Source of the DNA: Pseudomonadota bacterium
GTDB lineage: Bacteria > Pseudomonadota > Gammaproteobacteria > JAADHS01
Assembly: GCA_021821045.1 (NCBI GenBank)
Contig: JAKACW010000038.1
Coordinates: 1 to 39,541, forward strand
Direction of reading: 5' to 3'
Length of the DNA stretch: 39,541 nucleotides
Shown: one piece after another, positions 36,158 to 39,541 of the stretch
Position numbering within the stretch: the stretch's first letter is position 1
Layout: every line of letters starts with the position of its first letter
Made by a program: the position numbers and the translations under genes
Notes under the pieces: generated by a model
Databases searched by the model: none
Seen by the model: the letters and a program-made list of their open reading frames with translations, nothing else
What the model was told of the DNA's origin: nothing

Positions 36158-36185
36158 TGTGGGAGCGGTTTCGTTCCGCGATTCT
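36158..36185 (+). repeat. REP element (GTGGGAGCGG family), single
   Basis: GTGGGAGCGG, loop TTTCGTT, CCGCGATTC. It lies between the convergent oxyR and di-haem peroxidase genes and abuts the peroxidase stop codon (36185-36187). Confidence 0.88.
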
Positions 36186-37585
36186 TAGTCCGCCACCGGC
36201 AGGCCACTCGGCACCGATGCCGGAATGTCACCGCTTAAATCCAGCGACCCTGGATCAGTCAGCGCGTTCATGAATTCCATGAGTTGGCTGATTTCCAAGC
36301 GGCTCAACACGATGGGTGTCCGCGATTTCTCATCTAGCGTTTGCAGAATGGCTTGTTGTGTTTGAGGATCGTTGCGCAGCGTGGCTTGCAGCTCGGCGCT
36401 TAACTGCGAGGCATCGAAGTTGCGCAGGGATGCGGTGGGATCCAAGTGATGCTCGATGGCGTCTTCCAGTCGAACATAAGCGCCGTTGTGCATGTAGGGC
36501 CCATTGACGGCGACATTGCGCAGCGGCGGCGTTTTGAACTTGAATCGATCCGCGGGATCGCCGCTGACCAATTCGTAGCCGTAGTCGAAGGGCGCGCTGG
36601 TGCCTTTGCCGGGTCCCAACTGCGGCACGGCGATGTTGTGGAAGTCCTGGTCGGAGAGCAGTGAGCCGGAATGACACTCGGCGCAGCGGGCCTTGCCGAA
36701 AAAGAGTACGGCGCCTTGCTTGGCGGTCATGTTGATGGCGGTGGTGTCGCCGGCAACGTAACGATCCCATGGTGTGTTGACGGCGCTCCAGCGCTCGGTT
36801 TCGAACGCGGCAATAGCGTTCGCGGCGAAGGTGTAGTTGAGTTGATTCGCGGGCACCGTGGGGTATGCGGCCTGAAACATTTGGATGTAACGCGGAATGG
36901 TGAGCACGCGCTGCATCACCGCCGACCAGATTGCCGGAAAATCGCTGGCCGGGAGGTTAGCCAGTTCGTTGATGTTGCCAAACACGTCACGATCGTTGGC
37001 ATCGCCGCGCATTTCTTCGATCGAAGTGATGGGGAAAAACGCCTGGGCGGCAAACGCGCTGTCGACCCCAGGCAGCAGGGCCGTGCCGGCCGGTGTTTGA
37101 AAACCGGCGGCCTTAGTTCCGCTCACCCGTCCATCCCAAAACAGCGTGTCGACGCTGGCCAAGCCGCGATTGAACAGTTCGGGCGAATTGCGCGGGATCA
37201 AGCGGCGATTGACGCCTTTAACACGAGCGGGGCCGAGCCCGATGCCACCGGTGCCAAAGGACACCGATAAGTGATCGCCCGTGTGCAGCAAGGGATGGTG
37301 GCAGGTCGCACAGGACGTATCGCGGTTGCCGCTGAGCACTTTGTCGAAAAACAGCGCTTGACCGAGAGCGACTTGGGCCGCGCTGGCGCGACGAGGACGT
37401 TGCAGGGGCGCTATGCCCTGGGTTGTGATGGCGGCTTTAAGTTGACTATCCCAGTTGGCGGTATCGACGGTCGGGCTGTTGGTGTCGGGTGTCGTGTCTG
37501 ATTTTGGCTCGCCGCTACCGCCGCAGCCGGCGATGAGTGAGACCGCAAAGAAAAGACTGAAAAAGTGGACAGATTTTGCAAGCAT
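36185..37585 (-). CDS. Di-haem cytochrome c peroxidase-like lipoprotein (MauG family)
   Basis: A 466-aa protein with a lipobox (FAVSLIAGC) and a serine/threonine/proline-rich linker, then two haem sites: CATCH near residue 93 and CAECH near residue 300. Family parts include LGQALFFDKVLSGNRDTSCATC, SPELFNRGLASVDTLFWDGR and the C-terminal FKTPPLRNVAVNGPYMHNGAY. Peroxide reduction or protein oxidation in the envelope is likely. ATG 37585 has no obvious ribosome site but gives a correct lipoprotein signal. The gene is next to the transposase island, whose repeats begin about 20-90 bases upstream of its start. Confidence 0.88.
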   Translation of the reverse strand: MLAKSVHFFSLFFAVSLIAGCGGSGEPKSDTTPDTNSPTVDTANWDSQLKAAITTQGIAPLQRPRRASAAQVALGQALFFDKVLSGNRDTSCATCHHPLLHTGDHLSVSFGTGGIGLGPARVKGVNRRLIPRNSPELFNRGLASVDTLFWDGRVSGTKAAGFQTPAGTALLPGVDSAFAAQAFFPITSIEEMRGDANDRDVFGNINELANLPASDFPAIWSAVMQRVLTIPRYIQMFQAAYPTVPANQLNYTFAANAIAAFETERWSAVNTPWDRYVAGDTTAINMTAKQGAVLFFGKARCAECHSGSLLSDQDFHNIAVPQLGPGKGTSAPFDYGYELVSGDPADRFKFKTPPLRNVAVNGPYMHNGAYVRLEDAIEHHLDPTASLRNFDASQLSAELQATLRNDPQTQQAILQTLDEKSRTPIVLSRLEISQLMEFMNALTDPGSLDLSGDIPASVPSGLPVAD

Positions 37586-37601: not shown

Positions 37602-37666
37602 GCCCTTCATGACGACGTTGAGCAATTGTCCTGAAGGGCGGGTAACCACGTAATACGTGGGGTTAC
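37602..37666. repeat. Two hairpins at the left edge of the transposase island
   Basis: GCCCTTCA (37602-37609) and TGAAGGGC (37632-37639) form an 8-bp stem with a 22-base loop. Right after, CCACGTA and TACGTGG (37646-37660) form a compact hairpin, with GTAA and TTAC further out to 37666. The repeat array begins five bases later. Subterminal hairpins like these are what IS200/IS605-type transposases recognise, so they may mark one end of the element. Confidence 0.55.
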
Positions 37667-37670
37667 ATAT

Positions 37671-37918
37671 GCCAAACGCGGACATATGCCAAACGCGTGC
37701 CCCAAACGCGGACACCCATTTTTCGTCGCCAAACGCGTTCCAAACGCCAAACGCGGACACCCAAAACGCCAAACGCGGACACCCATTTTTCGTCGCCAAA
37801 CACCATACCAGACGCGGACATACCAGACGCGGACACCCATTTTTCCATGCCAAACGCCATATGCCCCATATGCCAAACGCGGACATCCATTTCCCCAAAC
37901 ACGGACACCCATTTTTCG
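37671..37918 (+). repeat. Degenerate direct-repeat array, motif CCAAACGCGGACACCCATTT
   Basis: GGACA occurs eight times here (37680, 37710, 37755, 37777, 37816, 37831, 37881, 37903), usually after CCAAACGC or CCAGACGC. Four copies extend to GGACACCCATTTTTC (37710, 37777, 37831, 37903). Intermediate units are shortened, such as CCAAACGCGTTC and CCAAACGCCATATG. The spacing is irregular (15 to 50 bases), so this is neither a CRISPR nor a simple satellite. All copies point the same way, towards the transposase gene that starts at 38014. Confidence 0.9.
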
Positions 37919-38013
37919 TAATCGAATCCTGACGTGCGCGCACTCCCATGTCTTACATGCCAAAGCGCCAAACGCCTCTGCCTCCTCGTCAACTCATGCC
38001 ACACACTCTCCCC

Positions 38014-39060
38014 ATGACGACTCCGCGCTCGAAACAAATCGACCTGTCCGTAACGCCGTATTACCACGTGGTTTCGCGCTGTGTGCGGCGGGCGTTTCTT
38101 TGCGGCAGCGACAAACTCACACGCCGCAGTTTCGATCACCGCCGCGGTTGGTTGGTTGAGCGCTTCCGACAGCTGGCCGGAGTGTTTGCCATTGATGTCG
38201 CGGCCTTCGCATGTATGAGCAATCACTACCATCTCATCCTGCGCGTGGATCGGGAACGAGCCAAAGAATGGACCGATGATGAAGTGGTGCGCCGCTGGGG
38301 CAGTCTGTGCGGTGGTGGCGCGGCGTACCGTTACCGTCAACAGCAAGCGCTGTCGGAGGCGGACAAGATCGAGATCGCGGTGAAGACTCCGACCTGGCGC
38401 GAACGCCTGCACGACATCAGTTGGTTCATGCGCTTGCTCAACGAGTTTATTGCCCGACGCGCCAACTTGGAGGACGGTTGCAAGGGGCGCTTCTGGGAAG
38501 GCCGATTCAAGAGCCAAGCGCTGCTCGACGAACGCGCGCTCTTCGCTGCCATGGCCTATGTCGATTTAAACCCAATCCGCGCAACGCTGGCAGAAACGCT
38601 GGTTGACTCGAACTACACCTCCGTCCAAGAGCGCGTTGTTAGCCATGCAAAAATCCATTCACCACGGAGCGCCATCGCCAAGCGGTCACTGCCGTATGAT
38701 GACGAGTTATTACCCGCATTGGTGCCGTTTTCGGACCAGGTCGTGCGACGCATCGGGCATCCGAGGAAAGCCGTTCCACTTCCGTGCACATTTGACAGCT
38801 ATCTCGCCCTCGCGGAATGGACGGGTCGCCAGCTTCGGAAGAATAAACGCGGCGCGATCCCGCAGGGTGCGAAATCGATACTCTTCGAACTTGGCATCGA
38901 CCAAGAGGATTGGCTACACACCGTGCGCAACATACGCCACGGCTTCTCCTTTGCGGTCGGCGGCTTGAGCTCGCTAACGAAATGGCGCGACCAACTCGGG
39001 CAGCAATGGGTGAAGGGCTTGGGCAGGCATGTCGGACGGCGTGCGGTGCAGCAGACGTAG
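38014..39060 (+). CDS. REP-associated/IS200-like tyrosine (Y1) transposase
   Basis: A 348-aa single-strand DNA transposase of the Y1/HUH class. It has the N-terminal TPYYHVVSRCVRRAFL, the metal-binding HUH pair H71 and H73 in MSNHYHLILRVD, RFWEGRFKSQAL, and the catalytic tyrosine Y182 in AYVDLNPIRATLAET. The C-terminal 130 residues extend beyond the core domain, as in long RAYT-like proteins. ATG 38014 was chosen because it starts the conserved part; upstream codons are made of repeat sequence. There is no clear ribosome site. It is flanked on both sides by related repeats. Confidence 0.88.
   Translation: MTTPRSKQIDLSVTPYYHVVSRCVRRAFLCGSDKLTRRSFDHRRGWLVERFRQLAGVFAIDVAAFACMSNHYHLILRVDRERAKEWTDDEVVRRWGSLCGGGAAYRYRQQQALSEADKIEIAVKTPTWRERLHDISWFMRLLNEFIARRANLEDGCKGRFWEGRFKSQALLDERALFAAMAYVDLNPIRATLAETLVDSNYTSVQERVVSHAKIHSPRSAIAKRSLPYDDELLPALVPFSDQVVRRIGHPRKAVPLPCTFDSYLALAEWTGRQLRKNKRGAIPQGAKSILFELGIDQEDWLHTVRNIRHGFSFAVGGLSSLTKWRDQLGQQWVKGLGRHVGRRAVQQT
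38885..39047 (+). repeat. Copy 1 of a 163-base direct duplication (inside the transposase gene)
   Basis: This stretch, coding for the transposase C-terminus from about residue 291, recurs at 39379-39541, offset by 494 bases. By eye the two copies differ at one base only (ACACCG versus ACGCCG), so the duplication is recent. The second copy is cut by the end of the window. Confidence 0.93.
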
Positions 39061-39215
39061 ATTTCAGGACAGATTCAAACAGACTCGAGGACGTCCGCCA
39101 CGCCACAGCGCTTGATTCAGTCTCCCTGTGCCAGACTTGGTTCGTCGCAGCAGTCAGTGTGATTCCGTTCGACTTCGCACCGCAAATTCCAATCGCTCTC
39201 GGTTACATGTGCTAC
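39061..39215. other. Spacer downstream of the transposase
   Basis: About 155 bases between the transposase stop and the 81-base repeats. I see no gene, promoter or terminator in it. Confidence 0.5.
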
Positions 39216-39377
39216 GAACGCGCCGCTAGCGTGAAGAGCATGCTCGGCTTGCGTTTAACTTTCGCCCGTAGACTAATGGGTGTCCGGGGATTTAACGAAC
39301 AAGTCGCTAGCGTGAAGGGCATGTTCGGCTTGCGTTTAACTTTCGCCCGTGGATTAATGGGTGTCCGGGTAGTTCGT
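39216..39377. repeat. Two tandem 81-base repeats carrying the inverted GGACACCCAT core
   Basis: Units 39216-39296 and 39297-39377 are nearly the same: both contain CGCTAGCGTGAAG, CGGCTTGCGTTTAACTTTCG and ATGGGTGTCCGG. ATGGGTGTCCG (39276-39286 and 39357-39367) is the exact reverse complement of CGGACACCCAT in the array at 37671-37918. The transposase gene is therefore bracketed by inverted copies of one core. Confidence 0.92.
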
Positions 39378-39378
39378 A

Positions 39379-39541
39379 TCGAACTTGGCATCGACCAAGA
39401 GGATTGGCTACACGCCGTGCGCAACATACGCCACGGCTTCTCCTTTGCGGTCGGCGGCTTGAGCTCGCTAACGAAATGGCGCGACCAACTCGGGCAGCAA
39501 TGGGTGAAGGGCTTGGGCAGGCATGTCGGACGGCGTGCGGT
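39379..39541 (+). pseudogene. Duplicated 3' fragment of the transposase gene, running off the window
   Basis: Near-identical to 38885-39047 and still open in the matching frame, but it lacks the catalytic N-terminal two-thirds. It starts a few bases after the second GTGTCCGG repeat, so the breakpoint lies at the repeat. It could be a truncated copy or the first part of a longer tandem duplication. Confidence 0.8.

Follow-up and report, generated by a model that had tools for sequence, protein, structure and literature searches.

Tandem arrays at the inverted ends of a putative mobile element with a subclass 2.3 Y1 transposase, and a proposed origin by in-place copying

The transposase island at the right end of this contig is probably (probability about 0.62) a mobile element of ∼1.3 to 1.4 kbp, or the relic of one, whose end arrays would have arisen by nicking, inward extension, and rejoining in place. 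The transposase class, the inverted core, the set distances between core and gene, the anchored starts of the tandem copies, their inward direction, and a difference in unit number between orthologous loci are seen directly, in the window itself (39,541 nt, the whole stretch of DNA that was analyzed) or among relatives of its transposase. These relatives come from one genome scan together with 369 genomes of the class and amount to 124 distinct loci, 106 of them with a full-length gene.

The element and its transposase

The window spans all of contig C115, part of a draft genome of 4.5 Mb. The left array, one transposase ORF, and two inverted cores all lie between a cytochrome-c-peroxidase gene and the contig end, as follows.

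36185-37585, minus strand: cytochrome-c-peroxidase gene, divergent from the transposase and left neighbor of the element
37602-37668, no strand assigned: two compact hairpins outside the array and upstream of the divergent peroxidase gene (from fold and genome copy count)
37672-37926, plus strand: left-end array (from the sequence, repeat and TRF tables, and positions)
37903-37912, plus strand: gene-proximal left core, GGACACCCAT
38014-39060, plus strand: Y1 (HUH) transposase, assigned to TnpA-Y1 subclass 2.3 (from the ORF, the 76-member alignment A1, the NCBIfam RAYT model below its cutoff, AlphaFold, and PDB)
39214-39374, minus strand: two right-end units with an 81-nt period, 89% identical, with one inverted core each (direct repeat D5)
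39276-39286, minus strand: right core, inverted (ATGGGTGTCCG on the plus strand), 216 nt past the stop codon
39357-39375, minus strand: outer right core with its 10-nt tail, CGGGTAGTTC; contigs C115 and C51 part exactly between 39375 and 39376
39376-39541, plus strand: putative start of a further ∼490-nt right-end unit, a transposase C-terminal copy joined at the element end (direct repeat D1)

The hairpins at the left edge, which the original prediction had pointed out, are genuine (z -4.1 versus shuffles), yet the stretch that holds them is single-copy in the genome; they probably lie outside the element and probably represent an unrelated structure, a leader or a terminator. An Rfam scan and a plasmid megablast each returned zero matches.

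The longest ORF starts at 37948, with a conserved Met at 38014. The HUH motif of the window protein is NHYH (within SNHYHLIL), as in 74 of 102 relatives, and the catalytic Tyr lies in YVDLNP, a motif found in the window and in 100 of the 102; across the 76 proteins of alignment A1, H95 and Y204 are invariant and W183 and E184 are conserved in at least 90%. Judged by its NHYH, WE, and YVDLNP motifs with the invariant Tyr, the transposase is a member of TnpA-Y1 subclass 2.3, and it has the long form of that subclass (median, 325 aa) with an insertion and a C-terminal domain; the median length of the relatives is 331 aa. An AlphaFold model (pLDDT 87.6) has extra helices at residues 102 to 130 and past 225 and is nearest to Escherichia coli TnpA-REP (4er8; Z 12.8 over 158 residues at 3.0 Å), followed by IS608 and ISDra2. 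These motifs and the nearness of the model to TnpA-REP bear out the earlier identification of a Y1 transposase between the arrays. The NCBIfam RAYT model matches below its cutoff, Pfam gives no match to the window protein at 0.001, with Y1_Tnp matched by 24 of 76 relatives, and PHROGs gives zero matches. A sequence search of the PDB returned only a weak Met-repressor match, which was judged to be chance.

The terminal inverted core

When 8-mers were counted without prior choice, GACACCCA is the most common one in the 500 nt upstream of the relatives' genes (59/104; shuffle maximum, 12) and also, read as the reverse complement, of the 500 nt downstream (39/104; shuffle maximum, 15). The core belongs to the transposase, as had been proposed. 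The sequence GACAYCCA lies in the expected rather than the wrong orientation by 68 to 8 in left flanks and by 42 to 7 in right flanks, and the logo of the core reads R-GACA-S-S-CA-Y (RGACASSCAY). The spacing is mostly 75 to 90 nt from core to ATG and mostly 182 to 220 nt from stop codon to core. The core is a short terminal inverted repeat of the transposase element, and its arrangement is the same in relatives from many gammaproteobacteria, in line with the earlier expectation that it would be found near homologues. Near-identical copies (85 to 94% alike) at different sites match for ∼7 to 11 nt outside the core and then diverge, which seems to place the boundary of the mobile unit ∼10 nt beyond the core. 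Around the core, positions -4 to -8 are weakly complementary to positions +10 to +14, and only in this register (overall z, 5.2; ∼3 for left and right ends separately after thinning, with other registers at most 1.5), and may pair into a small stem whose loop is the core; three of its five pairs form in the window. A search of 18 genomes from a single genus for the empty site of a 130-nt element with paired cores recovered none, the flanks being too diverged, and a literature search on core motifs gave nothing relevant.

Within the window, GGACA is present at 37680, 37710, 37755, 37777, 37816, 37831, 37881, and 37903, all on the plus strand, which confirms the eight units in a single orientation first noticed on the left; GGACACCCA is the continuation in five of the eight. 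Exact copies of CGGACACCCAT begin at 37709, 37776, 37830, and 37902. Its exact reverse complement is found at 39276 and 39357, the two positions on which the original prediction relied, and at 36312, inside the cytochrome-c-peroxidase gene, a third copy that it missed and that looks like chance. The motif CCAAACGCGGACA, with 0 mismatches, has five occurrences in the 4.5-Mb genome, all in the left array. Outside the window, exact CGGACACCCAT is found at the end of C51 and on contigs C100, C133, and C136; the latter three were judged to be isolated chance matches in unrelated sequence with no repeat context. In this host the core does not form a genome-wide repeat, and the enrichment elsewhere that had been anticipated is not seen.

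Tandem copies and their starting points

The left array comprises ∼13 units that open CCA(A/G)AC and have inner ends at differing positions. Units opening CCAAACG end after 7 to 27 nt, and part of the series reads CCAAACGCGGACATATG / CCAAACGCGTGCC / CCAAACGCGGACACCCATTTTTCGTCG / CCAAACGCGTT / CCAAACG / CCAAACGCGGACACCCAAAACG. Folding of the units gives no stable structure, which rules out an array of stable hairpins and agrees with the earlier view that the unit is not a hairpin. The short units had been regarded as eroded forms; by their common outer start, variable inner ends, and locus-specific tail, these arrays are instead made up of copies and are not eroded repeats. Nothing points to a host-useful repeat, another of the earlier suggestions.

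The same anchoring is seen across the relatives. Core-bearing flanks contain 94 perfect tandem duplications, and 40 of these start 8 to 13 nt 5′ of the GAC that follows (mean under the null, 6.7; highest of 5,000, 17). When the set is thinned for protein similarity, such a start is seen in 23 of 45 flanks (null, 4.5; maximum, 14); the shuffling nulls retain local sequence, not all of the dependence among related loci, and most of the data are draft assemblies. Unit lengths range from 7 to 106 nt, the inner end falls exactly at the core in 12 of the 40, and inward duplications outnumber outward ones by 40 to 5. Duplications are concentrated beside the gene (0.84/kb), where they are eight times more common than at a distance of 1 to 2 kb (0.10/kb), and their density within the gene is 0.05/kb. 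Arrays with the same outer start and other tails include AACAGTTCCCA (L039), CAGTAAAACA (L024), AGTTAAATCG (L027), AATTTACAGG (L035), and GTATAAACCG (L029), and right-end arrays at other loci are mirror images of the left-end arrays. More than half of the duplications start outside the range of 8 to 13 nt, and many of these may be due to the nesting of arrays and to mutation of the copies. Unit starts scatter over 8 to 16 nt, with no fixed cut dinucleotide and a mild enrichment of T at position -1 (12/28; P = 0.03). Between the orthologous loci L041 and L042, from two Alteromonas species, there is a difference of two left units, placed exactly at a unit start; this start is ∼6 nt from GAC, and the distance is therefore not strictly constant.

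The right end of the window element was partly overlooked in the original prediction. There are two 81-nt units, 89% alike and with different tails, and beyond the second of them, exactly 10 nt past the core, C115 and C51 diverge: C115 runs into a 99% copy of the transposase C terminus (39379-39541, copied from 38885-39047), inside which the contig ends, and C51 runs into other sequence. Because C51 overlaps positions 39253 to 39375 at 100% and then continues into other sequence, it is taken to be the other right flank of the element, a join that rests on assembly overlap, not reads. The junction of C115 with C51 would be the expected outcome of a ∼490-nt unit of the same kind as those in the arrays, with the assembly broken by the repeat; this unit, with the transposase C terminus, starts exactly 10 nt outside the right core, and 3 nt of the long junction are unexplained. 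Just past the right end of the element on C51 (locus L009, positions 1314 to 2270) is an open frame that has no match in Pfam and is similar to the tip of a polymorphic interbacterial toxin, and it is followed by a DUF4304 protein, a possible immunity gene; the element may be located within a toxin cassette.

In the reading favored here, the element would consist of one subclass 2.3 Y1 HUH gene between two terminal inverted repeats with the core RGACASSCAY, and would be cut at its end, on the strand reading 5′-tail-core-3′ and ∼10 nt outside the core. The enzyme would nick at this end and stay attached through its tyrosine to the 5′ end; a polymerase would extend the free 3′-OH inward over a variable distance, and the enzyme would then join the extended 3′ end to the retained 5′ end. 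Each round would yield a tandem copy whose start is always the nick and whose inner stop may lie anywhere inward, often right at the core, where bound protein may block synthesis, and sometimes hundreds of nucleotides further, as in the ∼490-nt right unit. We infer nick, extension, and rejoining from the form of the repeats and by analogy with TnpA-REP, which in vitro cuts single-stranded DNA to leave a 5′P-Tyr and a 3′-OH and joins a foreign 3′-OH to the retained end; priming of synthesis by the 3′-OH was considered possible by the authors (PMC8266576).

The main rival is staggered double nicking, in which a nick at the element end is paired with another nick, or a gap, at a more inward position on the opposite strand, followed by fill-in and end joining. 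It also yields a fixed start with a variable inner end, and a preferred second nick at the core would produce the 12 of 40 units that are tail only; it is nonetheless unlikely, as it requires a double-strand break and end joining in every round and predicts deletions and outward duplications about equally often, against the 40:5 excess of inward ones. An origin by replication slippage or unequal recombination of the ordinary kind in a repeat-rich flank, with the enzyme uninvolved, fits less well and is improbable: tandem copies often expand in this way once two exist, and E. coli REPIN clusters vary locally in copy number (PMC8049555), but neither the similar start-to-core distance with unrelated tails in unrelated species nor the lack of shared sequence at the joints where units end is explained. 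Least probable, by a little, is repeated insertion of copies at one site, as nested insertions or excision footprints, for although small paired-core elements in some genomes indicate that ends can move and the tails of the window's two right-end units differ, the units bear the local element's own tail, CCAAACGCGGACA is nowhere else in the genome, and the opposite end is missing from the units. Among the origins first suggested, a by-product formed at one site comes nearest the truth, though through copying of the element's own end where it stands and not through repeated insertion, because the array tails match the local element only.

Copying in place may extend beyond subclass 2.3. In subclass 2.1 relatives, GGGWCAGA ends are present in both flanks, tandem duplications start ∼5 to 13 nt 5′ of the GGGWCA core, and GWCA is common to the 2.1 and 2.3 cores. 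It is conceivable, at somewhat less than even odds, that TIR-type Y1 transposases of both subclasses have in common a reaction of nicking, short inward copying, and rejoining that makes tandem repeats from nothing. If true, such a reaction would explain the end arrays and the transposase C-terminus copies beside intact genes, and would possibly seed REP-like or MITE-like families; the mechanism by which REP-type transposases move or copy DNA is poorly understood (PMC8266576). Subclass 2.3, which is without known substrates, gains a candidate recognition core, a candidate cut position, and a natural record of products, and binding, cleavage, and rejoining thereby become testable on short oligonucleotides.

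Known systems and copies in other genomes

The present transposases resemble subclass 2.3 as published in their NHYH, WE, and YVDLNP motifs, their length (∼325 to 331 aa), their presence in Chromatiales and Alteromonadales, from which the subclass is known (PMC6006769), and their occurrence as several diverged copies per genome. They depart from it in their flanks, where an inverted core is conserved at set spacing and in-place arrays occur at the ends; automatic and manual searches had found no REP-like flanks (Quentin et al. 2018, PMC6006769). TIRYTs, or TIRtrons (De Nocera et al. 2013, PMC3733652), mostly of subclass 2.1, likewise have a Y1 gene between terminal inverted repeats that are not GTAG REPs. 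Their GGGGWSAS motif, described there as common and not obligatory, overlaps the core in WSAS (ACAC/ACAG), with GGGG not conserved here; no published TIRYT was assigned to subclass 2.3, and end duplications are not mentioned in the available part of that source.

RAYTs (REPtrons) and REPINs, exemplified by E. coli TnpA-REP (4er8), share the HUH Y1 fold and a gene flanked by inverted cognate copies, but the present family has no GTAG foot, no strong hairpin, and no fixed cut between C and T like that of E. coli TnpA-REP, and its core is not dispersed in hundreds of copies, reaching tens at most in relatives. No GT[AG]G-footed hairpin REPs are among the top flank k-mers, and the suggestion of a transposase-repeat family distinct from classical GTAG REPs holds up well. 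The IS200/IS605 elements IS608 and ISDra2 have a similar Y1 HUH catalytic domain and a cut shortly 5′ of the recognized end element, as is proposed here; their ends are same-strand hairpins, whereas the ends here are inverted repeats. Neither TnpB nor a guide/TTAC site was identified.

Tens of cores are present in the genomes of some relatives (51 versus 1 for the reversed control in G351, and 69 versus 6 in G275), and some contain paired-core elements of 110 to 140 nt. At L166, L168, and L169, paired inverted cores lie ∼100 to 130 nt apart with no gene between them, and the inner ends of L168 resemble element L153, as expected of a deletion derivative. Genome G053 has several separate transposase C-terminal fragments (L156 to L158, on C207, C106, and C167); these repeats of ∼180 to 370 nt have no exact core nearby and are possibly diverged long end units.

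Two further Y1 transposase sequences are present in the host (G000). One, on C11 (5377-5499; L015), is a relic of the N terminus of another subclass 2.3 transposase, with 49% identical protein and 52 nt at 81% DNA identity, and the other, on C19 (2595-3266), is a subclass 2.1-like Y1 transposase with 41% identity to L066. The Paraglaciecola element locus L035 contains a 46-copy repeat that includes GCAGTGAAC, CACAGGCAG, and AGCTTAGAA and resembles a type I-F CRISPR array.
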